A DNA stretch of 21,465 bases from Deinococcales bacterium (GTDB lineage Bacteria > Deinococcota > Deinococci > Deinococcales > JAAFIG01). Positions within the stretch are counted from its first letter, which is position 1; each line of letters begins with the position of its first letter. The notes beneath the pieces are model-generated. The model made no database searches, was not told the origin of the DNA, and saw only the letters and a program-made list of their open reading frames with translations. A program made the translations under genes and the position numbers. Positions 3 through 21,465 of the stretch are shown piece by piece. The DNA is taken from positions 1-21,465 of the forward strand of contig JAAFIG010000052.1 in the NCBI GenBank assembly GCA_013298595.1, in the 5' to 3' direction.

Positions 3-803
3 TGTCAACAACTCAATCCAGATTTTTCGGTGCAGTGGTTGATTGTGAATAATGATGCCGAACCTTTGCAACTCGAGCAAGCAAATATTAAAATTTTACC
101 AGCCGTACCTCGAGTGCTCCATGGCGACAAAGGCAGTTTTCACCATGCCGCTGCCATCATGAGTGCTTTGCCATTGGTTAAAACACGGTTTTTACTGGTA
201 CTTGACCATGATTTTTATGTGCTACAAAAAAATTGGCTACACAATATTGTGCAGCATATGCAAGCCCAACAACTCGGGTTTTTTGGTTCAGTCTGGCATC
301 CACGTTGGACCTACCAGTATCGGTACTTTCCGTCGGTGCATTGCATGCTGATTGATCTCGAGAAAATTCCACTCGAGCAACTTGATTTCACACCAGATAT
401 TGGGCTGGGTTTCTGGGATCAGCTAATCAGTACCAAGTTATCCCTACCTGCAAATCTGCGAAAACGCTTACAAGTTGGTCAATTCAAAGACACAGGCAGC
501 CGCATCCAAAAACGTTTTGCAAATCGCTATTTTGAATGCCTAACACCACACTTTTTAGCCGATACGACCCAAGAAAGATTTTTGTTTGACCGATTCAGTT
601 TAATTCCTAAAAAAGTAGGGTATTTTACTCGAGACAGTTTTTTGCAAACTCTTTCACCACTCGGTTACGAACATGGTTGGGAAGAATTTTTTTGGCAAAA
701 CCAGCCGTTTGCCTTCCATCTGAGAATGGTTGGTCGCACACCAGAAATCAGCGATGAAACCGAATTGACTCGAGTTCTTACACCTTTCATCACACGAATC
801 TGA
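3..803 (+). CDS. Probable glycosyltransferase, 3' part (5' end outside window)
   Basis: The frame is open to the left edge of the window, so the true start lies upstream. A GTG at 30 is in frame, but the coding sequence before it reads smoothly (CQQLNPDFSVQWLIVNND), as in GT2-type N-termini where a short helix leads into the first strand of a GT-A fold. Further on, LLVLDHDFYV looks like the strand carrying the DxD-like metal and nucleotide-sugar motif (DHD). The rest, rich in aromatic residues, has no motif I can name, and I see no membrane segments. The next gene, 22 bases downstream, makes a nucleotide-sugar uronic acid, so a role in surface polysaccharide synthesis is plausible. The family assignment is tentative: the acceptor and donor cannot be read from the sequence. 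Confidence 0.6.
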   Translation, partial: CQQLNPDFSVQWLIVNNDAEPLQLEQANIKILPAVPRVLHGDKGSFHHAAAIMSALPLVKTRFLLVLDHDFYVLQKNWLHNIVQHMQAQQLGFFGSVWHPRWTYQYRYFPSVHCMLIDLEKIPLEQLDFTPDIGLGFWDQLISTKLSLPANLRKRLQVGQFKDTGSRIQKRFANRYFECLTPHFLADTTQERFLFDRFSLIPKKVGYFTRDSFLQTLSPLGYEHGWEEFFWQNQPFAFHLRMVGRTPEISDETELTRVLTPFITRI

Positions 804-825
804 CAAAAAACGGGTTGGCTGAGGA

Positions 826-2181
826 ATGCAATCATCACTAGAAGTTGCAATTATTGGAGCAGGATATGTGGGCTTATCCACAGCGGTTGCGCTGGCATTG
901 GCTGGGCATCGTGTGCGAGTGGTCGAACAACAAACCCAGAAACTCGAGGTATTACAACAAGGGCAAGTCCCTTTTTTTGAACCTGATCTCGAGGCTGCGA
1001 TATTGCTATGTGCTGATAATTTGTGCTTTACCGCGCAAATGCAAAAAGCTGTGCCAACAGCTGATATCATTATACTGGCTGTTAGCACACCACCAAGCCC
1101 TGCTCATGGAGCAGATTTACGCCAAGTTTTCGCTGCTTTGCATCAACTAGCAGTGTTTTTACCAGATCGGCAACAAGTGCTGGTGGTCAAGTCCACTGTA
1201 CCTGTTGGTACGCATCTCGAGATACAAACGCTGATGCAGCAACTTGCACCAGATGCTAACTTAGCAATTGCCAGTAATCCAGAATTTTTACGTCAAGGTC
1301 GGGCATTACGTGATGCGGTTTTCCCAGATCGGATTGTGATTGGTGCATCCGAAACTTGGGCATTTGCACGTTTGCAACAATTATACGCACCCATTATGGC
1401 GGGAATAGTTCAAGTGCCAGAAAATCTCGAGATACACCGCCCAAAACATGCTATTCCAATACTCGAGGTCAGTGCTGCCAGTGCAGAATTAGCTAAGTAT
1501 GCAGCAAATGCTTTTTTGGCAATGAAAATCAGTTTTATGAACGAAATCGCTAATGTCTGCGATTCCACTGGCGCAGATATTGGAGACATCAAAAGTACTT
1601 TGCAATTGGATACCCGAATTGGTGCCGATTTTCTCAACGCTGGGCTGGGTTATGGTGGTTCTTGTTTTCCCAAAGATACCAAAGCTTTATCGCAATTGGC
1701 ACTGCGCAGCGGTTACGAATTTCGTTTATTAAAAGCAGTAATCGAAGTCAACAACGAACAAAAGTATCGTGCATTAAATAAACTCGAGCACGTTCTACAT
1801 GGTTTGCGCGATAAACAAATTGCCATTCTTGGTTTAAGTTTTAAACCAGATACCGCCGATACCAGAGAATCCATTGGTGTGGATTTAATAGAGGAATTGC
1901 TGGCTCGAGGGGCAATGGTAAAAGCACACGACCCCATGCTGGCGCAGTTGCAATTGCCCGAATTTAGCCAAGGTGTAACCTTATGCTCAGATTTAGCCAA
2001 TTGTCTCGAGAGCTGCGATGCGGCTATTTTGGTGACAGAATGGCGATGTTATCAAGAGGCAAACTGGGCATTACTGGGGCAGCGTATGTCGCAAAGAATC
2101 ATGTTTGATGGGCGCAATACATTATCGTTAAAAGCCATGCAAGAAGCCGATTTTGTCTATATTGGTATTGGAAGGAATTAA
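826..2181 (+). CDS. ugd: UDP-glucose/GDP-mannose 6-dehydrogenase family protein
   Basis: Oxidises the C6 hydroxyl of a nucleotide sugar (most likely UDP-glucose) to the uronate in two NAD+-dependent steps, feeding polysaccharide synthesis in the cytoplasm. The 451 residues show the N-terminal Rossmann motif IGAGYVGLS (about 10-18), the central SNPEFLRQG and AELAKYAANAFLAMK segments, the catalytic GYGGSCFPKDT with Cys280, and the C-terminal ILGLSFKPDTADTRES block. Length is normal for the family apart from an extra stretch of about 14-16 residues just before the AELAKYAANAF helix (around residues 196-212), bracketed by two CTCGAG sites. The ATG at 826 fits the family N-terminus, but the GAGG at 821-824 is unusually close to it. 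The substrate is not certain; GDP-mannose or UDP-N-acetyl sugars are alternatives. Confidence 0.9.
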   Translation: MQSSLEVAIIGAGYVGLSTAVALALAGHRVRVVEQQTQKLEVLQQGQVPFFEPDLEAAILLCADNLCFTAQMQKAVPTADIIILAVSTPPSPAHGADLRQVFAALHQLAVFLPDRQQVLVVKSTVPVGTHLEIQTLMQQLAPDANLAIASNPEFLRQGRALRDAVFPDRIVIGASETWAFARLQQLYAPIMAGIVQVPENLEIHRPKHAIPILEVSAASAELAKYAANAFLAMKISFMNEIANVCDSTGADIGDIKSTLQLDTRIGADFLNAGLGYGGSCFPKDTKALSQLALRSGYEFRLLKAVIEVNNEQKYRALNKLEHVLHGLRDKQIAILGLSFKPDTADTRESIGVDLIEELLARGAMVKAHDPMLAQLQLPEFSQGVTLCSDLANCLESCDAAILVTEWRCYQEANWALLGQRMSQRIMFDGRNTLSLKAMQEADFVYIGIGRN

Positions 2182-2183
2182 AC

Positions 2184-2636
2184 ATGCGAATACTGATTCT
2201 TTGTACCCACAACAGTGCTCGTAGCCAAATGGCAGAAGGCTGGGCACGTTATCATGCAAACCAACTTGGTGTATCTGCCGAGATTTTCAGTGCTGGCACA
2301 GAAGCCACTTTTGTTAAACCAGATGCGATAACAGTCATGCAAGAAATAGGTATTGACTTAACCACCCACTCGAGTAAAACACTTTTTAATTTACCCGACC
2401 CGTGGAATTTTACCTATGTGATTACAGTATGTGATAGTGCTGCCGAGCGCTGCCCCGTGTATCCAGCTAACACCACGCGGCTGCACTACCCATTTATGGA
2501 TCCCAGCGGGCATACACTCGAGACTTGGCGTGTTGTTCGAGACCAAATTGCAAAGCAACTCGAGCAATTTATGGTAGCACTGAAAAACAACCAGCCTATT
2601 CCTCCAAATTATGTCAATGCGCCATCGTTTATTTAA
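2184..2636 (+). CDS. arsC: Arsenate reductase, thioredoxin-coupled LMW-PTP type
   Basis: Reduces arsenate to arsenite in the cytoplasm. The 150 residues carry the P-loop CTHNSAR (Cys7, Arg13) at the N-terminus, the two shuttle cysteines Cys83 and Cys90 in VCDSAAERCP, and the general-acid Asp106 in FMDPSG. This three-cysteine layout matches the thioredoxin-linked pI258 ArsC family (Cys10, Cys82, Cys89 there) and separates it from plain low-molecular-weight tyrosine phosphatases, which lack the second and third cysteines. GGAAGGA precedes the ATG, which lies 2 bases after the dehydrogenase stop, so the two are probably co-transcribed. It sits just before pstS; arsenate enters through phosphate transporters, so the placement makes sense. 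No ArsR or arsenite efflux pump is present in the window. Confidence 0.88.
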   Translation: MRILILCTHNSARSQMAEGWARYHANQLGVSAEIFSAGTEATFVKPDAITVMQEIGIDLTTHSSKTLFNLPDPWNFTYVITVCDSAAERCPVYPANTTRLHYPFMDPSGHTLETWRVVRDQIAKQLEQFMVALKNNQPIPPNYVNAPSFI

Positions 2637-2717
2637 TGGCTTGCTGATACAATTCTTTTTGCAGCCTCGAGCTTTGCCACAAGCCATAAACTCGAATCTC
2701 AAGATTTCATTAAAACG

Positions 2718-2739
2718 CCTTGACGATTCCATGACAATT
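2718..2739 (+). promoter_or_regulatory. PHO-box-like direct repeat upstream of pstS
   Basis: Two adjacent 11-bp units, CCTTGACGATT and CCATGACAATT, lie about 64 bases before the pstS start. Read on the other strand they give TTGTCAT-N4-TCGTCAA, resembling the TGTCA-type half-sites with 11-bp periodicity of PhoB/PhoP-family operators. The same unit recurs before pstC. That this is the phosphate-starvation operator is an inference from position and repetition; no phoB/phoR gene lies in the window. No convincing -10 element is visible at the expected distance. Confidence 0.6.
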
Positions 2740-2802
2740 CACCCGCAAGATGCCCTCAGTCAGACCTCGAGAAATGACTCGAGTAAATTTACGGAGGAAT
2801 CT

Positions 2803-3837
2803 ATGAAGAAAATTTTAATCGCAAGTGCATTACTCGGCTCAGGCATTGTCTTAGCTCAAGTCAATAACATCACTGGCAGCGGCGCAAGCTTCCCATTTCC
2901 GTTGTACACCGAAATGTTCAATGCGTATAAAACCACCAGCGGTGTTAGCGTTAACTATGCCTCTAAGGGTTCAGGCGGCGGAAAGCGTGACATTATTGCT
3001 CGAGTCGTGGATTTTGCTGGTTCGGATGCACCTTTTTCCGAGCAAGAGAAAAAAGATGCGCCTGCTGAAATTAGTTTTATTCCAATGGCTCTTGGTGCTG
3101 TTGTACCAACCTATAACTTACCCGGTGTGACAGCTAAACTCAAATTCTCGGGCGAATTGCTGGCAAATATTTACCTTGGTAAAGTCAAAAAATGGAACGA
3201 TGCCACCATTGTTGCTTTGAACAAAGGTGTCAAACTCCCAGATACAGCAATTACAACGGTGTACCGCTCCGATGGTTCAGGTACCACCAGCATCTGGGTG
3301 GATTTCCTTGCAAAAGTTTCCACAGAGTGGGCAAGCACTGTTTCTAAAGGACCACAGTCGAGTGTTAAATTCCCAGTCGGTGTTGGCGGACCACAAAACG
3401 CAGGTGTGGCTGGTTTAGTGCGTCAAACCCCGGGCGCAATTGGGTATGTCGAAGTAACCTACGCCAAAGCCAACAAACTCGAGTACGGTTTGGTACGTAA
3501 CAAGACAGGTAAATTCGTAGATGGTGGCGATCTGAAAGAAATTGCTACTGCCTCTGATGCCGAAATTCTGCCAGCCAACGGCATTGACAGCATCACCAAC
3601 TCGAGCATTGGCTACCCCGTCAGTGGTTACACTTGGATTTTGGTGTACAAAGATCAAAAATATGGTACCCGCACCGAAGCCCAAGCTCAGGCTTTGTTTA
3701 ACATGCTCAAATGGATGCTCGGTAAAGGTCAAGAAATCCATAACAAACTCGATTATGGTCAAATTGATGGTCAGGCATTAAAAGTTGCTAATCGTATTGT
3801 TGAGGGTATCAACTACGGTGGCAAAGCCCTCAAGTAA
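2803..3837 (+). CDS. pstS: Phosphate ABC transporter, periplasmic phosphate-binding protein
   Basis: Binds phosphate outside the cytoplasmic membrane and delivers it to PstCA. The frame extends upstream, but the ATG at 2803 is chosen because GGAGG (2793-2797) sits just before it and the protein then starts with a signal peptide (MKKILIASALLGSGIVLA, cleavage probably after LAQ or LA). There is no lipobox cysteine, so it is a soluble exported form rather than a lipoprotein. The 344 residues contain the PstS hallmarks ITGSGASFPFPLY, a glycine/serine phosphate loop (SKGSGGGKRDI), DFAGSDAPF and YRSDGSGTT. Upstream repeats suggest phosphate control, and a strong terminator follows, so most transcripts may end here, giving more binding protein than permease. 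Confidence 0.95.
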   Translation: MKKILIASALLGSGIVLAQVNNITGSGASFPFPLYTEMFNAYKTTSGVSVNYASKGSGGGKRDIIARVVDFAGSDAPFSEQEKKDAPAEISFIPMALGAVVPTYNLPGVTAKLKFSGELLANIYLGKVKKWNDATIVALNKGVKLPDTAITTVYRSDGSGTTSIWVDFLAKVSTEWASTVSKGPQSSVKFPVGVGGPQNAGVAGLVRQTPGAIGYVEVTYAKANKLEYGLVRNKTGKFVDGGDLKEIATASDAEILPANGIDSITNSSIGYPVSGYTWILVYKDQKYGTRTEAQAQALFNMLKWMLGKGQEIHNKLDYGQIDGQALKVANRIVEGINYGGKALK

Positions 3838-3847
3838 AACACCAGAA

Positions 3848-3882
3848 AAGAACGAAAGCTATTTAGCTTTCGTTCTTTTTTT
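3848..3882 (+). terminator. Intrinsic terminator between pstS and pstC
   Basis: A near-perfect hairpin with arms AAGAACGAAAGCTA (3848-3861) and TAGCTTTCGTTCTT (3864-3877) is followed by an uninterrupted T run (3876-3882). It begins 11 bases after the pstS stop. It should stop or attenuate transcription ahead of pstCAB-phoU. Confidence 0.92.
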
Positions 3883-3885
3883 ATC

Positions 3886-3919
3886 CCATGACAATTCCTT
3901 GACAATTGCCATGAAAACT
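3886..3919 (+). promoter_or_regulatory. PHO-box-like repeat upstream of pstC
   Basis: Three units lie between the terminator and pstC: CCATGACAATT (3886-3896), CCTTGACAATT (3897-3907) and a degenerate CCATGAAAACT (3909-3919). The first two abut with exact 11-bp spacing and match the pair upstream of pstS in reversed order. The second contains a perfect TTGACA (3899-3904), but no good -10 follows at 16-18 bp. The arrangement suggests a separate, similarly controlled promoter for pstC-pstA-pstB-phoU. The factor involved is inferred. Confidence 0.6.
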
Positions 3920-3938
3920 AAGTTATGTGGAGAAAACC

Positions 3939-4877
3939 ATGATCTCGAGCGTTCCGCGTCCGCGCAGTATGACCAGCGCTGCCGATAACATCTTTCGGTT
4001 AATTATTTTAGCACTTGCTTGTGTTGTGCTGGCAGCTGTGGCTGTTTACGGATTTATTTTGATCCAAGGTGGCTTTGCCGCTTTTACTCGAGAAAACAGT
4101 GGTGGTTTCTTTGGCTTTATTTTCGGACTCGAGTGGAACCCTGGTACCGAAAAATTCCAAGCCTTACCTTTTATCTTAGGTTCGTTGTTCACTGGTTTTG
4201 GTGCTTTAATTATTGCCGTGCCACTGGCAGTTGCGGCGGCACTTTTTATTGCTGAGTATGCTCCGAAATGGTTAGCCACCCCTGTTGGTTATATGATCGA
4301 AATGCTGGCAGCCATTCCTAGTGTGGTGTACGGCTTGTGGGGCATTTTTGTTTTAATTCCTGCGGTGCGTAACTTCCAAATCTGGTTTGTTGGCGCAACA
4401 GGTGTAGATTGGCAACCGACTGGCACAGGGTTAATGAGTGCGATTTTGGTACTGGCAATTATGGTGATTCCGTATGTTTGTGCGATTGCTCGAGACGTGA
4501 TTCAACTTGTTCCCAACGATCAACGCGAAGCGGCATATGCACTGGGTGCAACCAAATGGGAAGTGATTCGTTATGGCATTTTGCCTTATGCCAGAGCTGG
4601 CATTCTTGGTGGTGTGATACTTGGTTTAGGTCGAGCTATTGGCGAAACCCTCGCGGTAACTATGGTGATCGGTAATGCCAGCGACATTGCTAAAAATTTG
4701 TTCTCGAGCACCGCCACCATGAGCAGCCTGATTGCCAGTCAATTCGGCGAAGCTGGTGGCACCCAATTATCTGCTCTGATTGCACTTGGTTTTATCTTGC
4801 TGATCTTGAGTGTGATTGTCAACTTAATTGCTCGAGTGGTGATTACAAAACTCACACCAGTTGGCACAAGGTTATAA
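3939..4877 (+). CDS. pstC: Phosphate ABC transporter permease PstC
   Basis: One of the two membrane subunits forming the phosphate channel. The ATG at 3939 is preferred over the in-frame GTG at 3927 because GGAG (3929-3932) is correctly spaced before it. This gives 312 residues, normal for PstC. About six hydrophobic segments are visible, the first at residues 20-43. The cytoplasmic EAA-type loop that docks on PstB reads REAAYALGATKWEV, followed by the conserved GRAIGETLAVTMVIGN. The gene overlaps the pstA ribosome-binding region closely, consistent with an operon. Confidence 0.95.
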   Translation: MISSVPRPRSMTSAADNIFRLIILALACVVLAAVAVYGFILIQGGFAAFTRENSGGFFGFIFGLEWNPGTEKFQALPFILGSLFTGFGALIIAVPLAVAAALFIAEYAPKWLATPVGYMIEMLAAIPSVVYGLWGIFVLIPAVRNFQIWFVGATGVDWQPTGTGLMSAILVLAIMVIPYVCAIARDVIQLVPNDQREAAYALGATKWEVIRYGILPYARAGILGGVILGLGRAIGETLAVTMVIGNASDIAKNLFSSTATMSSLIASQFGEAGGTQLSALIALGFILLILSVIVNLIARVVITKLTPVGTRL

Positions 4878-4887
4878 GGGAGACGTG

Positions 4888-5781: not shown

Positions 5782-5834
5782 AATACAAATTATCTTGTTT
5801 TAGTCGGTCAGCTCTGCCCTCACGAAGGAGATCA

Positions 5835-6641
5835 ATGTCGAATCCATTTCAAATACAAGTCACCGAAAAACCACTTTCCGACGCAGCAATTCGTTTGGCT
5901 GCCAAAGATGTCAGTATTTTTTATGGTGAAAAAGAAGCGGTGAAAAAAGTTTCGGTGCAATTTCAGAGTAATACTGTCAATGCTTTAATCGGACCTTCGG
6001 GTTGCGGTAAAACCACGTTCTTACGCGCCATTAACCGCATGCATGATTTAACGCCAGGTGCTCGAGTCACAGGGCAGATTTTCTTAGATGGTAACGATTT
6101 GTACGGAGCTGGAGTAGACCCTGTGGATGTACGTCGGCGTATTGGCATGGTTTTTCAAAAACCCAATCCGTTTCCAACCATGAGCATTTACGATAATGTC
6201 GTGGCTGGCTTAAAACTGGCTGGTGAAAAAAATAAAGCCAAACTCGACGAAGTTGTTGCTAAATCACTACGTGGCGCAGCACTTTGGGATGAAGTCAAGG
6301 ACCGCCTCAAAGCCCCAGGAGCCAGTCTTAGTGGTGGTCAACAACAACGCTTGTGCATTGCCAGAGCCTTAGCCGTCGAACCCGAAATTCTACTGATGGA
6401 TGAACCCACCAGTGCCCTCGACCCACAAAGCACCGCCCGTATCGAAGACTTGATGGAAACCCTGAAACAACAAGTTACTATTGTTATTGTCACCCACAAC
6501 ATGCAACAAGCCTCTCGAGTTTCGGATACCACCAGTTTCTTCTTGGTTGGCGATTTAGTCGAGCATAGCCCAACCGCGCAAATGTTCACCAATCCAAAAG
6601 ATTCGAGAACCGAAGCGTACATCAGCGGAAAATTCGGATGA
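5835..6641 (+). CDS. pstB: Phosphate ABC transporter ATP-binding protein PstB
   Basis: Cytoplasmic ATPase powering PstSCA. The ATG at 5835 follows AAGGAG (5825-5830); the open frame upstream is read-through of pstA sequence in another frame. The 268 residues carry Walker [10 protein letters not shown] (53-61), Q-loop Gln108 in VFQKPNPFP, the ABC signature LSGGQ (165-169), Walker [13 protein letters not shown] (185-196) and the switch His221 in VTHNMQQ. Length and spacing are textbook for PstB. CTCGAG is scarce here compared with neighbouring genes (two sites in about 800 bp). The 53-base gap after pstA holds no terminator. Confidence 0.97.
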
Positions 6642-6669
6642 ATGATCCACTGGCTTTTAGAAGCGACCC

Positions 6670-7284
6670 ATGACGCATCTCGAGACAGAACTTAAAGATA
6701 TTCAACGCGAGCTTTTGCTTGGTATGAATCGCGCTCGTAATGCAGTGGTACTGGCTGGTGAGGCATTGCTTGAGCAGAGTAACAAAAAAGCTGAACGTGC
6801 CAGAAGTATGGCTTTAGAAATCGAAGTTTTTCGTGTCATACTCGAAGATAAGTGTTTGACAGCGTTTTCTCAGCATCAGCTTGTGGCTCGAGATGCACGT
6901 TTTGTGGCATTTGTGCTGAGTAGTTTAACCGATCTTGAACGCAGCGGCGATTACGCAGCTCACATTGCCGAGGATGCTGTGGTGGCTCGAGGGCATTTGG
7001 ATTTGTTGCATCAATTATTTACAAGATTAACTGCTATGCTCGAGCGGCTTGGTTTAGCTTTAGAACGCAGCGATGCTGGACTGGCATTGGCAGTTGCAGC
7101 CGAAGATACCCATGTAGACGAATTGATCGAAATGGTATCGGCAAAAGTGATTTCTGGCTTTCATAGCGTACCACTCGAGACAGGTTTAGCTTCGCTACGA
7201 GTATTACGCAGTGCTCAACGAATAGGCGATCATCTCGAGAATATTGCTGAGCGATTGGCGTTTGCTATTACAGGTTCTCGTTGA
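6670..7284 (+). CDS. phoU: PhoU-family phosphate signalling/uptake regulator
   Basis: PhoU proteins link the Pst transporter to the phosphate-starvation histidine kinase and restrain uptake when phosphate is plentiful. The 204-residue all-helical sequence contains the two family metal-binding motifs, one per three-helix half: DLERSGDYAAHIAE (about 88-101) and RIGDHLENIAERL (about 184-196). It is somewhat shorter than the E. coli protein. The start at 6670 is the only good in-frame ATG; the upstream signal (AGAAG) is weak, suggesting coupling to pstB 28 bases before. It is last in the pst operon, and its stop lies only 7 bases from the stop of the convergent P450 gene with no clear terminator between. 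Confidence 0.92.
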   Translation: MTHLETELKDIQRELLLGMNRARNAVVLAGEALLEQSNKKAERARSMALEIEVFRVILEDKCLTAFSQHQLVARDARFVAFVLSSLTDLERSGDYAAHIAEDAVVARGHLDLLHQLFTRLTAMLERLGLALERSDAGLALAVAAEDTHVDELIEMVSAKVISGFHSVPLETGLASLRVLRSAQRIGDHLENIAERLAFAITGSR

Positions 7285-7291
7285 TGATTCG

Positions 7292-8623
7292 TTAGCGGCG
7301 TGCCACGAATTTCAAAGCAAATTTTGTATCTGGGCTAGGTGTTGGTGTTGAAATAATGCGTAATTTATAATTTGGGTCTGGCTCGAGTTTTGCATGTTTT
7401 ATAATGCCTGCCACACTAACCATAATAATTGCTTCTGCCATACCCGCACCTAAGCATGTGTGTGAACCCACACCAAATGGCACATAGACCCCTGGACGGC
7501 GATGCTCAGCTCGAGCTGGGGTAAAACGTTCGATATCAAAAGCATATGGATTTTGATAATACTCAGGTAGAAAATGGGTCACTGTTGTACCAATAATCAC
7601 ATTGGTATCTTTTTTGATTGTATACCCAGCAAATTCAAAATCTTTTGTTACTGTCCGAGTTAAAGCTCCTGCAATTGGGTATAAACGCATTGTCTCGAGA
7701 ATGACACGGTGCAAGACATCCATACCTCGAATACTCTGTGTGGTAAGTTCGCCACTGGCAAAAGCGGTATCCACTTCGGCTCGGACTTGCTCGAGAACTT
7801 CTGGGTTTTGATGTAATGTCCAAAGCACAAAACTCAGCGCATTAGCAGCTGTGTCTAAACCTGCAATGTAAGGACCTAGTGCTGCCATCAGTAAATCTTG
7901 GTCGGGAATAAAATCAGGGTATTCTTGTTGAGCTGCAATTAAATCATCAATTAAATCTGGTTCTCGAGTACCAGGTGTATCGCGGTGCGCTTGTATCATT
8001 TCACGAACAAAATTGATAACACGGGTTTTAGCTCGTTGATAACTGGGGTCGAGTAAAACAAATTTAGGGTATTGTTTGGTCACGTAAACAAATAACATGG
8101 TGCGAACCATTTTTAGTAAATCAGGAATATATGCCCTTGGTGATGTATTTGTGGTCAGTTGCCCTAGTTGCTCGGTGACAATTCGTTTCATAGCAGCTGT
8201 GACAGAAACAGGTTGACCTTGTTGCCAAGAATTAATTTCGGTGACAACAATCTCGAGAATATCGTTGTACCGACCATCTACGGCTGAACGAGCATATCCT
8301 CGTTTCTGAATTTTTCGCATTTGTACATGGTCAGCACCATCTAAACTAATCATCGAACGATTGGCTCCTAATTCTGTATCTTGAGGATGCCAGACTTCCC
8401 AAGATCGAAAATGGGCTGTTCCTTCTTTAGTCACGAACTGATTGGCTTCTGCTCCAACAATAGCTGTTAAATTTTGGGTTGCAGCTTGAATCCGAAAAAC
8501 TGCACCATGTTTTTGGTATTGCTTGGTTAAAAAAAGCACTGGATCCGCTAACATAGCAGCGGCACTACCAAGAATTGGCACACCATCGGCTAAAGGTGGT
8601 TGGCTTCTCAAATTTTTGGTCAT
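7292..8623 (-). CDS. Cytochrome P450
   Basis: A haem-thiolate monooxygenase; substrate unknown. The ATG at 8623 is chosen over an in-frame TTG at 8629 because AAGGAG is ideally spaced before it, giving 443 residues. All core motifs are present: I-helix oxygen-activation AGLDT (254-258), K-helix ExxR as E310-T-M-R313, and the haem loop FGVGSHTCLG with Cys390 as proximal ligand. There is no membrane anchor or fused reductase, so it is a soluble class I type needing a separate ferredoxin partner, which is not in the window. It stands alone on the minus strand, so no pathway can be inferred from neighbours. Confidence 0.93.
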   Translation of the reverse strand: MTKNLRSQPPLADGVPILGSAAAMLADPVLFLTKQYQKHGAVFRIQAATQNLTAIVGAEANQFVTKEGTAHFRSWEVWHPQDTELGANRSMISLDGADHVQMRKIQKRGYARSAVDGRYNDILEIVVTEINSWQQGQPVSVTAAMKRIVTEQLGQLTTNTSPRAYIPDLLKMVRTMLFVYVTKQYPKFVLLDPSYQRAKTRVINFVREMIQAHRDTPGTREPDLIDDLIAAQQEYPDFIPDQDLLMAALGPYIAGLDTAANALSFVLWTLHQNPEVLEQVRAEVDTAFASGELTTQSIRGMDVLHRVILETMRLYPIAGALTRTVTKDFEFAGYTIKKDTNVIIGTTVTHFLPEYYQNPYAFDIERFTPARAEHRRPGVYVPFGVGSHTCLGAGMAEAIIMVSVAGIIKHAKLEPDPNYKLRIISTPTPSPDTKFALKFVARR

Positions 8624-11153: not shown

Positions 11154-12608
11154 TTAAACTTGTTCTACGCGAATCAAATTTGTGCTGCCTGTGTGCCCAA
11201 ATGGGACTCCTGCAACAATGACGATTTTTTCGCCTTTAATGACAATTCCGCTTTGCAGTGCGGCTTCTCGAGCCAGTTCGACCATGTGGTCGGTGTCTCG
11301 GATTTCAGCAGCGGTGCGGGATGTGACGTTGCTCGAGAGGACGAGTTGGTTTTTGCTTAGTTCGCTGCGGGTCAGGGCGATGATTGGTACGCGTGGGCGG
11401 TTGCGGGCGACTCGCCATAAGCTGCTGCCTGTGGCGGTGAAGCAGACGAGGGGTGCGCCAATGGTGTCGGCGACTTCGCAGGCGGCTAGGGCGATGGCAT
11501 CTTGGGTGGTGGAGAGTGGTTCGGCATGTCCTTTGATGGTTTTTTGGTAAGCTTCTGAAGCTTCGGTGGTACGAGCAATTCTGTCCATCATTGAAACTGC
11601 TTCGATTGGGTATTTGCCGCTGGCACTTTCGGCTGAAAGCATCACAGCATCGGTGCCGTCTAAAATGGCGTTGGCAACGTCGGATGCTTCAGCTCTGGTG
11701 GGGCGTGGATTGTCAATCATACTCTCGAGCATTTGTGTGGCTGTGACCACGGGTTTGCCTGCGTCGCGGCACATTTGAATAATCATTTTTTGAATCATTG
11801 GTACTTTTTCTGGTTCAAGTTCAACACCTAGGTCGCCTCGAGCCACCATCACACCGTCTACAACTTCGAGAATACGGGCGAAGGCTTCTGGTTCGACAGC
11901 GCTGGGTTTCTCAATTTTTGCCATTAACTTAGCAGTTGAACCTGCGGCATTTAAGTACCCTCGAGCTTCGAGTACATCTTCGGCACTGCGTACAAAGCTC
12001 ATGGCTACCCAGTCCACGCCAAGGGCAACACCTGTTTTAATATCTTCGATGTCTTTTTCGGTGACGGCTGGGGTGGATAAATTGGCTTCTGGTACGTTGA
12101 TGCCTTTTTTGTCTTTGAGTGCGCCGCCGTAAACAACGGTGGTGATGATGTCGTTGCCTTCGACTTTATCCACAGTCAATTTGAGGTTGCCATCATCGAG
12201 CAGCAAACTCATACCAACCGTCACATCTTTAATCAGGGCTTTATAGGTGGTCGAAACCCGTTCTGGTGTTCCCATGATGTCATCGGCAGTGATCACAAAT
12301 TTCTGACCAGCCTCGAGCATCACACCAGCTTGCATCCGTCCACCAGAATCCACTTGGTATTTTGGGTCGAAGCGTTCAGTACGAATTTTGGGTCCTTGTA
12401 AATCTTGTAAAATCGCAACTGCCACACCTTTAGCGGTAGCCACATCACGAATGGTTTTAACTCGAGCTGCCATTTCTTCTGGGTCTTTAAGATGCGAGAA
12501 ATTGAGCCGAGTCACATTCAAACCTGCGTCTATGAGTTTGCCAATCATTTCGGCACTACTCGAGGCGGGTCCGATGGTTCCAACAATTTTTGTCCGACGT
12601 GGTTTCAT
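11154..12608 (-). CDS. pyk: Pyruvate kinase
   Basis: Last step of glycolysis: phosphoenolpyruvate plus ADP to pyruvate plus ATP, cytoplasmic. The start at 12608 (MKPRRTKIVGTIGPAS) is chosen because GAGGAG lies just before it and the family N-terminus begins there; the frame stays open 10 codons further. The 484 residues show FSHL (Asn-Phe-Ser region near 30-36), the B-domain lid, MAKIEKPSAVE, VMVARGDLGVELE with the catalytic loop, and TATQMLESMIDNPRPTRAEASDVANAILDGTDAVMLS. The usual ETAxGxYP is AESASGKYP here, a mild variant. The C-terminal regulatory domain is complete. It lies downstream of enolase on the same strand with a terminator between, so each is probably transcribed separately. Confidence 0.96.
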   Translation of the reverse strand: MKPRRTKIVGTIGPASSSAEMIGKLIDAGLNVTRLNFSHLKDPEEMAARVKTIRDVATAKGVAVAILQDLQGPKIRTERFDPKYQVDSGGRMQAGVMLEAGQKFVITADDIMGTPERVSTTYKALIKDVTVGMSLLLDDGNLKLTVDKVEGNDIITTVVYGGALKDKKGINVPEANLSTPAVTEKDIEDIKTGVALGVDWVAMSFVRSAEDVLEARGYLNAAGSTAKLMAKIEKPSAVEPEAFARILEVVDGVMVARGDLGVELEPEKVPMIQKMIIQMCRDAGKPVVTATQMLESMIDNPRPTRAEASDVANAILDGTDAVMLSAESASGKYPIEAVSMMDRIARTTEASEAYQKTIKGHAEPLSTTQDAIALAACEVADTIGAPLVCFTATGSSLWRVARNRPRVPIIALTRSELSKNQLVLSSNVTSRTAAEIRDTDHMVELAREAALQSGIVIKGEKIVIVAGVPFGHTGSTNLIRVEQV

Positions 12609-12626
12609 GAAGCTCCTCAGGGGCAA

Positions 12627-12647
12627 GGGCGATGACAAGCATCGCCC
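12627..12647 (-). repeat. GC-rich hairpin in the pyk leader
   Basis: GGGCGATG (12627-12634) and CATCGCCC (12640-12647) flank ACAAG, only 18 bases before the pyruvate kinase start. Read on the minus strand it begins GTAGGGGCGATG, which resembles small dispersed GTAGGGGCGA-type hairpins seen in many cyanobacterial and other genomes. It could instead be a leader structure affecting pyk expression. There is no T run directly after it, so it is not an obvious terminator. Confidence 0.5.
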
Positions 12648-12651
12648 CTAC

Positions 12652-12682
12652 AAAAAACAAAGGCGAGATAAACCTCGCCTTT
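12652..12682 (-). terminator. Enolase terminator
   Basis: On the minus strand the stem AAAGGCGAG / CTCGCCTTT (arms at 12674-12682 and 12659-12667, loop 6 bases) is followed by GTTTTTT (12652-12658). It starts 4 bases past the enolase stop. A classic intrinsic terminator. Confidence 0.92.
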
Positions 12683-12686
12683 AGGG

Positions 12687-14012
<1,326 letters not shown>

Positions 14013-15703: not shown

Positions 15704-15714
15704 GGTTTAGTGTA
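15704..15714 (-). promoter_or_regulatory. Candidate leaderless promoter (-10) of sppA
   Basis: On the minus strand TACACT (15714-15709) is followed by 5 bases and then the ATG at 15703, with no ribosome-binding site. Deinococcus is known to use TANNNT placed like this for leaderless transcripts. No convincing -35 is visible. Confidence 0.4.
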
Positions 15715-15799
15715 CGAGGCAAACCCCTAAGAAGTTCCAATAGTGCTTTTCATTGTGCCCAGTGTACGTGTTTACACATGTCATTCTGGTTTTACCTGT

Positions 15800-15811
15800 T
15801 AGGCTAATACT
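15800..15811 (+). promoter_or_regulatory. Candidate leaderless promoter (-10) of the response regulator operon
   Basis: TAGGCT (15800-15805) plus 6 bases leads straight into the GTG at 15812, and there is no Shine-Dalgarno sequence. The geometry equals that of the two candidates at 18876 and 21202. No clear -35 is seen. Confidence 0.4.
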
Positions 15812-16174: not shown

Positions 16175-16176
16175 TC

Positions 16177-17373
16177 ATGTTGCAACGAGTACGCTCAATT
16201 TTGCAATATGGCACCATCAGTGCGATATTATTTATTTTTGAGGTGCTGTTGGTTGGGTATTTGCTGGATGGTTTCTGGCGAGGCAATAATGTTTGGCACA
16301 ATGTGATTCTTGGTTTAATTGCTTTAAATTTAGCGCTTTTAACCGTTCTTGGTTTTCAAGTCATTGCCCATCAGCAACGTAACCGCCATGCGCCAAGCGA
16401 AGCAGAACTCGAGGCATGGACAGAGCATTGGCTTGGTTTAATTTGGGATGCTAACGGCGAACCACGCTTAAATGGGGTTCATGCAGCTCGAGTGGATGCT
16501 GCCACCGATGCCTTACTGCGTTTACGTGAACGCTTACGTGGCGAAGATTCGTACAAGGCAGCTCAGTGGTACGACCGCAGTGGTTTACTCGAGCGTGACT
16601 TAAACATTATTTGGCATGGCAACAAAGACGAGCGTTTAATTGCTTTAGATAACCTTGCTCGAGCGCGTCATCCTGCTTCGTTGCACGCTTTGGAGCGCTT
16701 ATACAAAGATGCCGACCCCGAAACCAAACGATTGGCACTGTTGGCACTAGCTCGAGTGTGTGCTCGGTTAAAACGTCCTCGAGAACAATTGGTGCAACGC
16801 TTTTATCAGAAATTAATTGATCCAAGTTTATCCAGAGGTATGATTGAACGGGCACTGGTTTTACTTGAACGTAACGCCAGCCCTGTTTTAGAAGCTTTGC
16901 TCGAGCCTATGCCCGTGCCTCATGCACATGTACAAAGTGCTTTACATGCTTTAGGTCATGTCAGAGCACTGGAATTACTGGATTTATGCACCTACTGGTT
17001 GCGCGACCCAAACCTGAGTATTCGTTGTGCTGCGGCTCGAGCCATGTACCAATTAGGGGTTGTGCCACTGGCTGCCGAAACACCGTTGCGTTCCATGTTG
17101 CACGAAGAAAACTTTGCTGCCCGAGCGCAAGCTGTGCTGGCGTTATCGTGTTTAGATCGGCAATTTGTTAATCAAGTTTTACTGCGCTGCCTCGGTGATA
17201 GCCATTGGTGGGTGCGGCATAACAGCGCTGTGGCATTATCAAAACGTGGTAAGGCAGGGGTGGCGTTACTTGAACGCGCTGCGCTGCATCACAGCGACGG
17301 TTTTGCTCGAGATACCGCTCGTCAACAACTGATCGAACTGGGTATTGGTATGCCCGACGCGGTCTTAACGTAA
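16177..17373 (+). CDS. Membrane-anchored HEAT-repeat protein
   Basis: A 398-residue protein with two hydrophobic segments near the N-terminus (about 12-31 and 41-63), then a cytoplasmic region of charged linker (about 65-150) and helical repeats of roughly 30 residues from about 150 to the end. Repeat starts look like DERLIALDNLARARHPASL, DPETKRLALLALARV, NLSIRCAAARAMYQLG, NFAARAQAVLALSCL and HWWVRHNSAVALSKRG, the alternating pattern of HEAT/PBS-lyase-type repeats used as protein scaffolds. It has no catalytic motif. It follows the response regulator by 2 bases and precedes a GT2 synthase by 19, so it probably tethers signalling to that enzyme at the membrane; this is inferred from order only. 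Confidence 0.8.
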   Translation: MLQRVRSILQYGTISAILFIFEVLLVGYLLDGFWRGNNVWHNVILGLIALNLALLTVLGFQVIAHQQRNRHAPSEAELEAWTEHWLGLIWDANGEPRLNGVHAARVDAATDALLRLRERLRGEDSYKAAQWYDRSGLLERDLNIIWHGNKDERLIALDNLARARHPASLHALERLYKDADPETKRLALLALARVCARLKRPREQLVQRFYQKLIDPSLSRGMIERALVLLERNASPVLEALLEPMPVPHAHVQSALHALGHVRALELLDLCTYWLRDPNLSIRCAAARAMYQLGVVPLAAETPLRSMLHEENFAARAQAVLALSCLDRQFVNQVLLRCLGDSHWWVRHNSAVALSKRGKAGVALLERAALHHSDGFARDTARQQLIELGIGMPDAVLT

Positions 17374-17392
17374 AACATGGCAGAATACAAAC

Positions 17393-18793
17393 ATGCAAAT
17401 CCTCGAGGTGCTCAGAGAACTACTCGAGTTTGCTTTTTTACTGTACTTTGCTATCACCAATACGTTTTATAGTTTTGCTTTGCTGGTCGGCGCACAAGGC
17501 TTACGGCGCAGCCTTGGTCGTGGCGATGTACTGACCATAGACGATTTACTCGAGAAACAAGTCTACCGCCCAATCAGTATCCTCGCCCCTGCTTATAACG
17601 AACAAGAAACCATTGCCTCGAGTGTGCGAAGTTTTCTCAATTTGCATTACCCAGAATTTGAAGTGGTGGTGATAAACGACGGCTCCAAAGACCAAACCAT
17701 CGAAATCCTCAAAAAAGAATTTGCCTTACTCGAAGTTGCCCAAATTCGCCGTCCTGGAATCAGCACCAAACCCGTCAATGCGGTGTACCGCAGCACCTTA
17801 TTTCCCAATCTGGTGGTGGTAGATAAACAAAATGGTGGCAAAGCCGATGCCTTAAATGTGGGCTTATTACACAGCCGATACCCGATTTTTTGTGCCGTAG
17901 ATGCCGATAGCCTACTCGATGCCCGAGCCTTACTACGAGCCGCCCGGCATTTCCTCGAGGACGACAACACCATTGCCGTTGGTTGTAATGTCCGAGTGCT
18001 CAATGGTGCCACTGTCGAAGCTGGCGAAGTCACCTCATTACGCGCCCCAAATGGTTGGGTTGAACGCTTCCAAGTGCTCGAGTACTTACGGGTATTTTTT
18101 AGCACACGGGTTCTATGGGATCAATTTGGAGTGGTACTGATTATCTCAGGGGCTTTTGGTTTATTTAACCGCCAATTGGTACTCGACTTAGGTGGTTACC
18201 GCACCGATACCGTCGGTGAAGACATGGAATTAACGGTACGAATGCACCGACACTGTTTAGAATACAAACGCCCATACAGCATTCGTTACGCCCCAGACCC
18301 TGTTTGCTGGACACAAGTTCCCGATTCTTGGAAAGTGCTGCAACGCCAACGCAACCGCTGGCATCGCGGACTTTGGGAAACCCTGATGACTCATCGCAAC
18401 ATGACTTTTCGTAGCCAATACAAACAAATTGGTTGGTTTGCCATGCCGTACTTCTGGATATTTGAAGCCCTCAGCCCCGTCTTTGAAGTTTTTGGTTACG
18501 CCTACGTACTGCTGATGCTGATTTTTGGACAAATCAACGTACCATTTGCACTAACATTCCTCAGTTTAAGTGTGATTTACGGCATGATCTTATCACTCGG
18601 AGCACTCTGGGCAGAAACCTTCACACCACGCCAATACCCTCGTGCTCGAGACCGCCTGATCTTACTGGTTGCCTCGGTCTTTGAATCTTTGGGGTACAGA
18701 CAATTTTTATCATGGGAACGTGCCAAAGCAGGTTTTCAAGTGTTTCGTAAACGCGGACAGTGGGGCGAAATGGTGCGGAAAAAAATTGGCTGA
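17393..18793 (+). CDS. Processive family 2 glycosyltransferase (polysaccharide synthase)
   Basis: A 466-residue inner-membrane synthase of the NodC/HasA/PgaC type. An N-terminal hydrophobic segment (about 11-34) leads into a cytoplasmic GT-A domain with APAYNE, D96 in INDGSKD, the DAD motif (170-172), the TVGEDMELTVRM acceptor/base motif (E276, D277) and QRQRNRW (317-323), the Q/RxxRW hallmark of processive enzymes. Several hydrophobic segments follow (about 347-408, and 421-435 partly). There is no PilZ domain, so c-di-GMP control is not evident from this chain. The product polymer cannot be named; beta-linked N-acetylglucosamine or glucan are options. It is last of three co-directional genes with a response regulator and a HEAT protein. 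Confidence 0.9.
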   Translation: MQILEVLRELLEFAFLLYFAITNTFYSFALLVGAQGLRRSLGRGDVLTIDDLLEKQVYRPISILAPAYNEQETIASSVRSFLNLHYPEFEVVVINDGSKDQTIEILKKEFALLEVAQIRRPGISTKPVNAVYRSTLFPNLVVVDKQNGGKADALNVGLLHSRYPIFCAVDADSLLDARALLRAARHFLEDDNTIAVGCNVRVLNGATVEAGEVTSLRAPNGWVERFQVLEYLRVFFSTRVLWDQFGVVLIISGAFGLFNRQLVLDLGGYRTDTVGEDMELTVRMHRHCLEYKRPYSIRYAPDPVCWTQVPDSWKVLQRQRNRWHRGLWETLMTHRNMTFRSQYKQIGWFAMPYFWIFEALSPVFEVFGYAYVLLMLIFGQINVPFALTFLSLSVIYGMILSLGALWAETFTPRQYPRARDRLILLVASVFESLGYRQFLSWERAKAGFQVFRKRGQWGEMVRKKIG

Positions 18794-18875
18794 ACATTTC
18801 ACTCGAGAAATCCGTTGGGAGCAACCAAAAAATACTCTTTAAGAAAACTGACCCGATACAAGGCTTCTCTTGGAG

Positions 18876-18887
18876 TACACTTTTAAC
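18876..18887 (+). promoter_or_regulatory. Candidate -10/leaderless start upstream of the repeat protein
   Basis: TACACT (18876-18881) and 6 bases precede an ATG at 18888. A closely similar block (GAAAA-TGACCC, then 36 bases with conserved CTTCT, TAC-CT and CATG columns) occurs upstream of the lipoprotein gene at the right end, with TACGCT in the same column. Shared position and sequence argue for a real promoter common to both genes. Confidence 0.45.
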
Positions 18888-18956
18888 ATGATTTTGTGGT
18901 TCATTCTGACAGCAATACGTAACCAACTCAGTACGCAGAGCAGGTTTTATGCTTAA
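18888..18956 (+). CDS. Possible 22-codon leader ORF
   Basis: Starting at the ATG that the TACACT element would place at the 5' end of the mRNA, a 22-residue hydrophobic-then-basic peptide (MILWFILTAIRNQL...) ends with TAA overlapping the start of the repeat protein gene by 8 bases. It could be a coupled leader peptide, or nothing. The equivalent ATG upstream of the next lipoprotein gene instead runs in frame into that protein. Confidence 0.25.
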   Translation: MILWFILTAIRNQLSTQSRFYA

Positions 18957-20424
18957 AGCCGCTGCTTGGCTGGCATCCGTACTCATGACTTGTTGGCACT
19001 TCTCGAGTCTCGAGGGGAGTTCTATAGCAGGTGGCAAAGCAACACTGAACCAAGCACAAACCATAAGTAAAACCACGAGCCGTTTAAGTAATGCTGTGCT
19101 GAAAGATGGACAATTACCGTATGGTACTCGAGAAGAAGGTATGTTAAAAAATGGCGAAAAATGGAAAAGCACACTATTTAATGTATCAATCGAAGCACAA
19201 AAAGATGAAGTAATCGGATTACCCATAAAAGTATCTATAGAAAATCTTGATCCTCGAGATATTCCTATTCCGCTGCTTAATCCTTTGTGGACAGCAGATT
19301 TTTATAAGATTCGTAGTGAAAAAGAAATAATTAGTGCTGCTGGTATCCGTTTTCTATTTGGGATTCCAGTGGGTAAAAATCCAAAAGATTATGGAGTTAT
19401 TATTTTAAATGAGAATACTCCTACCTTAGAACCAGACTTGCGAGAAAAAACCTATTGGACTCCAGGTGGAAATGACTTTCTGGAATCAGAACAAGCAATC
19501 CTAACAAAAACATCGATTTTAAACCAACAAGGAATAGTTTTTGCATTAGTTAAAATACCAGCACCAGTAGTTCAAAGTTCTACTATTCAGCAAAAAATAC
19601 CATATGGCACTCGAGAAGAAGGTACTTTAACAGCGGGGGGAACTTGGACAAGTACCCTAGGAGTCGCTATAACTGCTTCGACACAAGAAGTTTATGGATT
19701 GCCAAGTAAGATTTCTGTTGAAATTATTGACCCTAAAACAGTTGGAGTCGCACCTTTTAATAATTTCCCTGTACCTCCGTTCTATTATAAAGTGCGAAGT
19801 GTAAAATCAATTGTTACTCCGAATTTTTTGAAATTTAGTTTCAGAATTCCAGATGGTGAACGTGTACAAGATTATCTTGTTGCTGTATTTAGGAGACGAC
19901 TTTCAATTAATGAACCTAATGATACTAGACAGGTGTGGACAACAAATAGAGTATCTGATTTTTCGGTACAAAACTCAACGGTTTTCTATAACTCGACAAT
20001 CCTAGATAGTGAAGGCATTATTTTTGCAGTCATCAGAATACCTAAATCTTCGGTTCTCGAGAATTTGGTAGAAAGATTAGTTTCAAAAGTCGGGTTTCAT
20101 AATAGTATTTCGGGTGAACAATTACCTTTTGGCACTCGAGAAGCAGGCACATTGGCAATAAGTCAAACATGGACAAGTTCTCTAGGTGTTTCAGTAACTG
20201 CTCCAGCAAAAGAGGTTTATGGACTGCCTAGTAAAGTTTTTGTAGAAATCATTGACCCTAAAACAGTTGCTACACCAATGTTAGGCGGTTTACCCACACC
20301 CGCTTTTTATTACAAGGTTAGTAGTGAGCGATTAATAAGTGCTCAGGGATTCTTGAAGTTTGCATTTAAGATTCCACAAGGTGAAAAAGTAGAGAGTTAC
20401 CACCTTCTAATACTCAGAAAATAG
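18949..20424 (+). CDS. Secreted tandem-domain protein of unknown family (ends at in-frame TAG)
   Basis: I do not recognise this family. The N-terminus (MLKAAAWLASVLMTCWHFS) looks like an export signal with Cys15 as a possible lipid site, although Thr at -1 is unusual. Three domains of about 160-175 residues begin at residues 56, 217 and 392, each opening LPYGTREEG or similar, then W-T-S-LGV, EVYGLPSK-VEIIDPKTV, FYYKV-S, LKF-FKIP-GE, and, where complete, a closing IFAV-KIP. The pattern suggests beta-rich extracellular modules. The third domain is cut by TAG at codon 492, after LILRK, while the same frame continues with homologous sequence to 21069. The ATG at 18949 follows AGCAGG. The DNA is more AT-rich and poorer in CTCGAG than its neighbours. 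Confidence 0.75.
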   Translation: MLKAAAWLASVLMTCWHFSSLEGSSIAGGKATLNQAQTISKTTSRLSNAVLKDGQLPYGTREEGMLKNGEKWKSTLFNVSIEAQKDEVIGLPIKVSIENLDPRDIPIPLLNPLWTADFYKIRSEKEIISAAGIRFLFGIPVGKNPKDYGVIILNENTPTLEPDLREKTYWTPGGNDFLESEQAILTKTSILNQQGIVFALVKIPAPVVQSSTIQQKIPYGTREEGTLTAGGTWTSTLGVAITASTQEVYGLPSKISVEIIDPKTVGVAPFNNFPVPPFYYKVRSVKSIVTPNFLKFSFRIPDGERVQDYLVAVFRRRLSINEPNDTRQVWTTNRVSDFSVQNSTVFYNSTILDSEGIIFAVIRIPKSSVLENLVERLVSKVGFHNSISGEQLPFGTREAGTLAISQTWTSSLGVSVTAPAKEVYGLPSKVFVEIIDPKTVATPMLGGLPTPAFYYKVSSERLISAQGFLKFAFKIPQGEKVESYHLLILRK

Positions 20425-21069
20425 CTTTCTATTCATTCAGAAGGGTCGAGTAGTGAACCAACATGGGTAGAAGATGGACTGTATTCTTCGCTGCAAGATT
20501 CTACTATACACACTAAATTAAAAATTTTAGACAATGATGGTTTCATTTTTGCAGTAGTTAAAATACCAGCACCAACAGTTCAAAGCCTCAGTGATTTTTC
20601 TACTATTCAACAAAAAATACCTTTTGGCAATCGAGAAGAAGGTATTTTAGCAATAGGTCAAACTTGGACGAGTTCTTTAGGTGTTGCAGTAACTGCTCCA
20701 GCACAAGAGGTTTATGGTTTACCAAGTAAGATTTCTGTAGAAATTATTGACCCTAAAACAGTAGCTGTACCCATTTTAAGTACTGTTTCTACACCCGCTT
20801 TTTACTACAAAATCAGCAGTGATCGGTTAATAAGTGCACAAGGATTTTTGAGGTTTGCATTTAAGATTCCAGAGGGTGAAAATCCACAGAATTATCGCAT
20901 TTTAATACTTTCCAAATCATTATCATTTCATTCAAATGAACCCAATGACCTTGTTTGGTCAGTAGGGGAATCAGATTCTTCATCCCAAAATTCAGCCGTG
21001 TACGCAGAATTAAGTTATTTAAGTCATGATGGTTTCATTTTTGCTGTGGTTAAAGTACCCAAACGATGA
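20425..21069 (+). pseudogene. Continuation of the tandem-domain protein beyond the TAG (domain 3 end and domain 4)
   Basis: Directly after the TAG at 20422-20424 the same reading frame runs open for 214 codons to a TGA at 21069. It supplies the missing end of domain 3 (LSIHSEGSSSEP ... DGFIFAVVKIPAPTVQS) and a whole fourth domain from I557 (IPFGNREEG ... AVVKVPKR). Domain 4 has Ser (TCA) where domain 3 has the TAG: ILSKSLSFHS against ILRK-stop-LSIHS. There is no ribosome-binding site or good start after the stop. Either a recent nonsense mutation, a suppressed or read-through amber codon, or a base-calling error explains it; without the TAG the protein would be 706 residues. Confidence 0.75.
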
Positions 21070-21201
21070 TGTAAAGATGACAATTTCAATAATGTATTCC
21101 TATTTGAAAATCTCGAGAAATTGATTGCCCAACTAACCCGTGTGACACAATGCAAGTTATGTTTGTGTGAAAAATGACCCAGTTTAACTCTTCTTTAAGG
21201 T

Positions 21202-21213
21202 TACGCTTCCGTC
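21202..21213 (+). promoter_or_regulatory. Candidate -10/leaderless start upstream of the lipoprotein gene
   Basis: TACGCT (21202-21207) plus 6 bases precedes an ATG at 21214 that is in frame with the lipoprotein ATG at 21280. The 36 bases between GACCC and this ATG have exactly the same length, and about 20 identical columns, as the block before the tandem-domain gene. Confidence 0.45.
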
Positions 21214-21279
21214 ATGTTTTTTCGTCTAACTCCAATTACAATTCTTAAAGCCACTTCCCGAAGAAAGAAAGGAGGTTTT

Positions 21280-21465
21280 ATGTTCACAGCCGCATTACTG
21301 GCATCCGCCCTCACCGCTTGTCCTCAAGCACCAGCTCCTCAAGAACAACAAGTATCAACCCAAGCTTTAACCACCCCTCGAGATATCATGCTTCACGGTA
21401 TCATCGCTGGGCTAACCTTCCAAAGTAACCAAGGTTTTACATTGCAAAACAACTCGAGTATTCAT
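21280..21465 (+). CDS. Lipoprotein, N-terminal part (continues beyond window)
   Basis: The first 62 codons of a gene that runs off the right edge. A short signal peptide MFTAALLASALTAC has a good lipobox (LTAC, Cys14), followed by a Pro/Gln-rich tether (PQAPAPQEQQ) and then SNQGFTLQNNSS. An exact AGGAGG lies just before the ATG at 21280. An in-frame ATG at 21214 would add 22 residues (MFFRLTPITILKATSRRKKGGF), giving an odd long basic N-region, so 21280 is preferred unless the mRNA is leaderless. The mature function cannot be told from so little. The signal sequence and upstream region resemble those of the tandem-domain gene. Confidence 0.75.
   Translation, partial: MFTAALLASALTACPQAPAPQEQQVSTQALTTPRDIMLHGIIAGLTFQSNQGFTLQNNSSIH

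Follow-up and report, generated by a model that had tools for sequence, protein, structure and literature searches.

CTCGAG, very probably a highly iterated palindrome of Deinococcota, and its imprint on proteins

Background

What keeps a single six-base palindrome, CTCGAG, so abundant in the DNA of a Deinococcales bacterium? The question is raised by positions 1 to 21,465 of contig JAAFIG010000052.1 (assembly GCA_013298595.1); this whole stretch of 21,465 nucleotides is called the window below. An earlier note on its letters had seen about 123 CTCGAG sites, strongly enriched on both strands and in intergenic DNA, and had likened them to HIP1 (GCGATCGC), the highly iterated palindrome (HIP) of cyanobacteria, as a genome-wide DNA-level signal in what looked like a Deinococcota-type genome. 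The purpose of HIP1 has been a question for decades, and a matching methyltransferase was the leading clue. Here it is reported that CTCGAG is almost certainly a palindrome of the HIP class. Its sites are written genome-wide regardless of gene function, are retained in place much longer than control hexamers and have forced amino-acid replacements on proteins.

Abundance and placement of CTCGAG

The window holds exactly 123 copies of CTCGAG, against 4.3 expected from base composition or 2.2 from a first-order Markov model, and none of the remaining six-base palindromes comes near it in excess. Its genome assembly (4.58 Mb, 68 contigs, 94% complete) was studied through whole-genome pattern counts and a 1.26-Mb sample, enrichment being measured in 421 kb from 21 places. 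The earlier note had considered that the word might lie near expectation outside the window, or that many other hexamers might be equally over-represented. Neither is the case. Across the whole genome (4,582,226 bases) there are 27,159 copies of CTCGAG, or 5,927 per Mb and one per 169 bp, versus 15 of the reversed-letter word GAGCTC. In the 421-kb sample, 2,485 copies were observed versus 42.3 expected under a first-order Markov model (59x), the runner-up palindrome (GATATC) reaches just 1.9x, and every 20-kb piece contains 58-144 sites.

The word is also exact. After CTCGA the next base is G in 90% of cases (421-kb sample). Single-base neighbours, described in the note as far rarer, are indeed at about expectation, with the transition neighbours modestly in excess (TTCGAG/CTCGAA 163 vs 74, CTTGAG/CTCAAG 127 vs 98). 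TCGA outside CTCGAG occurs as expected (1130 vs 1082). The flanks are free, save for a scarcity of CCTCGAGG (30 vs 121-218 in other contexts). As a separate observation, many palindromes are strongly avoided in the 421-kb sample: GGCC (11 vs 1309), TTCGAA (1 vs 130), CTTAAG (2 vs 105), GAGCTC (0 vs 58), GACGTC (0) and CCGCGG (0). The same strong avoidance is seen in the genomes G005 and G006 and in loci of Deinococcales metagenome-assembled genomes (MAGs).

The sites are equally dense in coding (5.8/kb) and intergenic DNA (5.5/kb), and within genes they occupy all three codon phases (1236/528/392). Codon or amino-acid usage might be suspected as the source of the signal, given that CTC-GAG codes for Leu-Glu and that sites are most often in phase 0. 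However, each phase is 8-19 times above synonymous codon shuffles and intergenic DNA is just as rich; as for an assembly artefact, independent genomes from independent records carry the same signal. Both explanations can practically be dismissed.

The effect on proteins is large. Leu-Glu ranks first among the 400 dipeptides in over-representation, with 4,885 occurrences in 331,090 residues (2.36x), vs 1.00 for Glu-Leu, and 66% of these pairs are encoded by CTCGAG. Extrapolated to the whole genome, the excess amounts to ~10,000 Leu-Glu pairs. Among tripeptides able to carry CTCGAG in the second phase, ~65% carry it. All strongly enriched relatives have Leu-Glu ratios of 2.1-2.55, compared with 1.04-1.12 in the CTCGAG-poor genome G004, the Thermus thermophilus HB8 plasmid pTT27 and two Deinococcus plasmids. 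For Thermus and Meiothermus, publicly named plasmid records supplied the sequence. DNA-level pressure can thus be strong enough to reshape protein sequences.

Taken as a whole, the palindrome stands alone with an extreme observed/expected ratio and is found in coding and non-coding DNA and in any frame, which answers to the description of a HIP in Elhai's wider sense. Like HIP1, CTCGAG is enriched tens of fold in genes and intergenic regions and is gained and lost between related genomes. It differs from HIP1 in sequence and phylum, its signature being common with Deinococcales MAGs; it is 6 bp long with free flanks, and no matching methyltransferase was found. It is also denser, at about 5,900 sites per Mb vs 300-2,700 for HIP1. 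Chi sites and DNA uptake sequences are other short words over-represented genome-wide; they are oriented and mostly occur once per kb or more sparsely, whereas CTCGAG is a symmetric word at several times that density. In cyanobacteria, alternate HIPs (GGCGCC, GCsGC, rCCGGy and GGGATCCC) have been described (Elhai 2015, PMC4390886), so that there too a different short palindrome fills the HIP role in a lineage. Those words are confined to single genomes or narrow groups, are 75-100% GC and have a matching methyltransferase each, whereas CTCGAG is 67% GC and extends over several families; it thus falls below the GC content of >=75%, which is a reported trend and not a definition. No earlier report of a CTCGAG HIP was found in the open-access literature, subscription journals lying outside the search. 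What appears to be new is the word, the phylum, the higher density, the protein imprint and the failure to find a matching methyltransferase.

Mutual exclusion of sites

Inside genes, CTCGAG sites exclude one another: relative to baseline, the density of pairs is 0.13 at 6-10 bp, 0.25 at 10-15 bp and 0.42 at 15-20 bp, and genome-wide it is 0.13-0.17 at 6-10 bp. Correspondingly, Leu-Glu is written CTCGAG in 19% of cases with another site 6-10 bp off and in ~75% beyond 80 bp. The spacing is under-dispersed, with 79 gaps of 6-20 bp observed vs 205 expected and few gaps of 400-800 bp; above 60 bp it is random. Avoidance of hairpins was tested as the whole cause and accounts for part only, because CTCGAG pairs drop far below control pairs of GC-rich inverted hexamers, which drop only to 0.62-0.83; the curves coincide beyond ~30 bp. 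Biased mutation alone, one of the causes offered in the earlier note, fits poorly because the sites exclude one another within ~20 bp. As a side observation, some intergenic sites form a CTCGAG-loop-CTCGAG arrangement followed by a run of T, apparently intrinsic terminators; T-rich tails were seen at 19 of 107 close pairs.

Such exclusion resembles a protein footprint. It is conceivable, therefore, that an abundant dimeric DNA-binding protein, acting in the nucleoid or in replication, segregation or repair, uses CTCGAG and that a roughly even supply of sites is selected. The digital and symmetric specificity, the under-dispersed spacing and the retention of sites position by position (see below) are all consistent with this idea. 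On the other hand, the sites bear no relation to genes. In the genome sample their profile is flat around both start and stop codons, and no helical (10-11 bp) periodicity was found, so that neither the promoter association nor the phasing of transcription-factor or nucleoid-protein sites is present. Apart from the short-range exclusion, spacing is random. Moreover, selection on any single site out of 27,159 redundant ones should be very slight; nevertheless, amino acids have been changed. A selected function of this kind appears unlikely, while deserving to be taken seriously.

Conservation and decay of sites

The genome G005 belongs to the same genus as the window's genome in the genus grouping used. 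In an alignment of the two (71 kb, 71.6% identity), 230 of 365 CTCGAG sites are kept (63%), vs 18% of control hexamers. Where Leu-Glu is kept in both genomes, a site in the window's genome is matched by one in G005 in 116 of 139 cases (83%), and G005 has a site in 52 of 92 cases (57%) where the window's genome has none; other Leu codon pairs are identical between the two in 15-30%. Therefore, the sites outlast neutral codons and are regained. In a closer relative, the MAG 'Deinococcales bacterium bin20' (85.6% identity to the window's genome over 1,250 bp), 5 of 7 sites are common, a small sample. Site-by-site comparison with relatives covered the pyruvate kinase and enolase genes and the phosphate-uptake region of the window.

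Loss of CTCGAG proceeds by C-to-T change. Among Leu-Glu codons without the site, CTTGAG, CTCGAA and CTTGAA are found at 5.9x, 3.0x and 2.0x the codon expectation and CTGGAG at 0.45x; transversion neighbours show no excess. Decay products exceed expectation to a similar degree at both cytosines of the word (about 195 and 225), so no hypermutable methylated cytosine, that is, no 5-methylcytosine (m5C) hot spot, is indicated.

Distribution across the phylum and beyond

The phylum was surveyed by the ratio of CTCGAG to GTCGAG, a word of equal composition with the same TCGA core, in 111 genomes. This ratio spans 23-54 in f1, the family of the window's genome. In f2 it is 5.6, 73 and 88 in three genomes and 0.7 in the fourth, G004. 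It is 6 in one genome of f3, 3-19 in three genera of f4 and 7-24 in three genera of f5, most other f5 genomes being at ~1. The f4 genus g13 mostly shows ratios of tens to hundreds, since GTCGAG is nearly gone there (5-63 copies per strand, with ~2,000 CTCGAG remaining). Enrichment thus recurs over several families of the phylum, in varying strength, and some species have lost it. The comparison with related genomes that the earlier note had called for shows that the signal is no single-genome oddity, and its attribution to Deinococcota agrees with the Deinococcales label of the MAGs that share the signature, bin20 among them.

A pattern like that of g13 is found in pTT27, with 86 copies of CTCGAG and 10 of other TCGA in 100 kb, where 253 TCGA are expected; CTCGAG is not in excess over Thermus codon usage there but is the sole TCGA context that escapes removal. 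Thermus phages avoid TCGA without sparing CTCGAG (6/29 of TCGA in P23-45, 0/29 in phiYS40). In the two Deinococcus plasmids CTCGAG is depleted (0.4-0.5x). The Thermus pattern, together with the avoidance of GGCC, TTCGAA and GAGCTC noted above, is what would be expected if other palindromes or TCGA were cut away by restriction and CTCGAG were the protected survivor, and restriction may contribute in Thermus. As the only cause it is very improbable: avoidance cannot make a word 59 times more frequent in absolute terms, nor can it double Leu-Glu, and for the window's genome it is contradicted by TCGA at expectation outside CTCGAG.

In a scan of GTDB for dense CTCGAG triples, dispersed high enrichment occurred only in Deinococcales MAGs among the matches listed, the others including many tandem repeats and chance matches in GC-rich genomes. 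A scan of viral contigs gave no clear phage array among the matches listed. Two minor observations may be mentioned. First, IMGVR_UViG_3300042691_013017 (6167-7875) has 14 dispersed CTCGAG sites in 1.7 kb and may be either host DNA or a phage infecting a host of this kind. Second, Natrialbaceae-type haloarchaea (loci L204, L213, L232, L236 and L244) have CTCGAG at 4-6x expectation, perhaps a weaker independent case.

Search for a matching enzyme

Because every cyanobacterial HIP genome has a methyltransferase matching its HIP (Elhai 2015, PMC4390886), this link was tested hardest. CTCGAG is exactly the word of the XhoI and PaeR7I restriction-modification systems, and the earlier note had suggested a CTCGAG-specific (XhoI-type) methyltransferase. 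However, the XhoI-family nuclease (PF04555) was found in just 4 of the 111 genomes (G012, G013, G014 and G108), none of them CTCGAG-rich, and XhoI-type restriction-modification was rejected as the cause. In the three f3 genomes G012-G014 (loci L049, L050 and L051) the nuclease gene adjoins a beta-class methyltransferase, and CTCGAG counts are ~1/3 to 1/2 of those in sister species without the nuclease, as restriction avoidance predicts. The PaeR7I-like enzyme encoded next to the XhoI-type gene of G108 matched well in a subset of the f4 and f5 genomes only, with weak similarity at most in f1 and f2, and this group was rejected as a common cause. Searches with PF01555, PF00145, PF07669, PF02384 and PF02086, followed by clustering, found no enzyme common to the CTCGAG-rich genomes, so the note's suggestion is not supported as a shared explanation.

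The window's genome encodes six methyltransferases. The enzyme G000:C66 was dropped as a shared candidate, as weak Pfam matches had made it look shared although a single genome carries it. The best-shared enzyme is the m5C methyltransferase G000:C15 (found in G000, G005, G003 and G097), a solitary gene (L096:4908-6038) whose top PADLOC match is 'orphan methyltransferase'. It is 58% identical to plasmid enzymes, one of which adjoins an HpaII-family nuclease. Since its nearest relatives sit beside HpaII-type (CCGG) nucleases, G000:C15 is predicted to be probably CCGG-specific. It is also absent from equally enriched relatives and was rejected as the cause.

An alternative would be a methyltransferase-linked HIP, in which a CTCGAG- or TCGA-methylating enzyme, different in each lineage or unrecognised, biases mismatch repair, the mechanism proposed for cyanobacteria (Elhai 2015, PMC4390886). 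The cyanobacterial precedent favours it, as do the six resident methyltransferases, most without an assigned specificity, the PaeR7I-like enzymes of several moderately enriched Thermaceae-like genomes, and an orphan CTCGAG methyltransferase reported in Nocardia (Blow 2016, PMC4752239). In Nocardia the same word is used outside restriction-modification, but is reported in local clusters near dnaA and not genome-wide. A different enzyme per lineage, an unrecognised enzyme or genes lost from incomplete assemblies may be compatible with the negative search. Against this stand the lack of any common enzyme in five Pfam families, the CCGG-type affinity of the most widely shared one and the even decay at both cytosines. 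The methyltransferase link is accordingly judged improbable. A second, separately placed and denser HIP in another phylum without a shared methyltransferase would uncouple the repeated word from methylation and hint at a more general mechanism.

Possible mechanism

The explanation we favour, tentatively and with a probability of roughly 0.4, is a 'sequence drive' of the HIP class: biased repair or gene conversion towards CTCGAG that offsets its C-to-T decay. A resident and mostly vertically inherited DNA process would recognise the exact symmetric 6-bp word. Near-matches would be converted to CTCGAG by the biased repair or gene conversion, and an intact copy or strand would be used to restore mutated sites, countering steady C-to-T loss. 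Multiple chromosome copies per cell could serve as the repair templates; Thermus and Deinococcus have many. Drive is preferred over per-site selection because losing a single site should be of little consequence when there are 27,159 of them, 169 bp apart, and because each is nonetheless conserved individually and takes precedence over protein sequence. We count for it the exact word with its free flanks, the even density in coding and intergenic DNA regardless of gene landmarks or helical phase, the site-by-site conservation, the Leu-Glu excess, the C-to-T decay products, the exclusion below 20 bp and the sparing of CTCGAG in pTT27, which the two Thermus phages lack.

Several points weigh against sequence drive. 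No enzyme or recombination factor was found as its agent. In divergent genomes, drive and selection for the presence of a site leave the same footprint, and the comparisons were made at 72-75% identity, too distant for single mutation events to be seen. A functional protein bound to the sites would also account for the 20-bp exclusion. Finally, the trait has disappeared from some genomes within the order (G004, observed/expected 0.8), and no accompanying gene loss was identified.

A narrower version, for which we would claim rather less, is a drive independent of methyltransferases, in which the repair or recombination machinery of Deinococcota turns near-matches into CTCGAG, is active in cultured Thermaceae and spares CTCGAG in Thermus. 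If true, about ten thousand extra Leu-Glu pairs in the proteome would be owed to such a drive. Cultures exist of enriched relatives such as Allomeiothermus silvanus and Oceanithermus profundus, and T. thermophilus is genetically tractable, so the mechanism can be tested directly.

Features of the window

The gene content of the window is ordinary. By Pfam it includes UDP-glucose dehydrogenase, a phosphate-type solute-binding protein and permease, P450, RtcB, pyruvate kinase, enolase, an S49 peptidase and a glycosyltransferase. Table 1 gives the sites and the located genes, together with one open reading frame (ORF) that stands apart.

Table 1. Location of CTCGAG sites and selected genes in the 21,465-nt window
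Feature	Position	Strand	Remarks
CTCGAG array, 123 sites	72..21458	none (palindromic)	in genes of both strands and intergenic DNA; last site 21453-21458
CTCGAG starts, part 1	72,109,357,372,628,769,943,988,1216,1426,1462,1783,1904,2005,2369,2517,2559,2666,2766,2778,2999,3478,3600,3944,4087,4128,4489,4703,4831,4944,5325,5549,6061,6514,6679,6887,6986,7039,7174,7234		
CTCGAG starts, part 2	7382,7510,7694,7790,7963,8252,8833,8860,8938,9140,9245,9332,9592,9871,9994,10026,10214,10278,10366,10475,10631,10858,10930,11267,11332,11724,11837,11960,12312,12461,12559,12918,13110,13194,13381,13604,13812,13867,13878,13976,14072		
CTCGAG starts, part 3	14108,14264,14341,14421,14641,14752,14868,15041,15068,15374,15473,15494,15584,15938,16136,16408,16487,16588,16658,16751,16778,16900,17036,17306,17402,17423,17549,17617,17954,18077,18645,18802,19002,19009,19127,19253,19610,20056,20135,21112,21377,21453		
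Tightest CTCGAG pair	19002..19014	none	starts 7 bp apart; such spacing strongly disfavoured genome-wide
Widest gap between adjacent sites	20135..21117	none	starts 977 bp apart
Pyruvate kinase and enolase genes	11154..14006	-	Pfam PF00224/PF02887 and PF00113/PF03952
ORF of 491 aa	18949..20424	+	no Pfam match; three internal repeats beginning near 'PYGTREEGTL'

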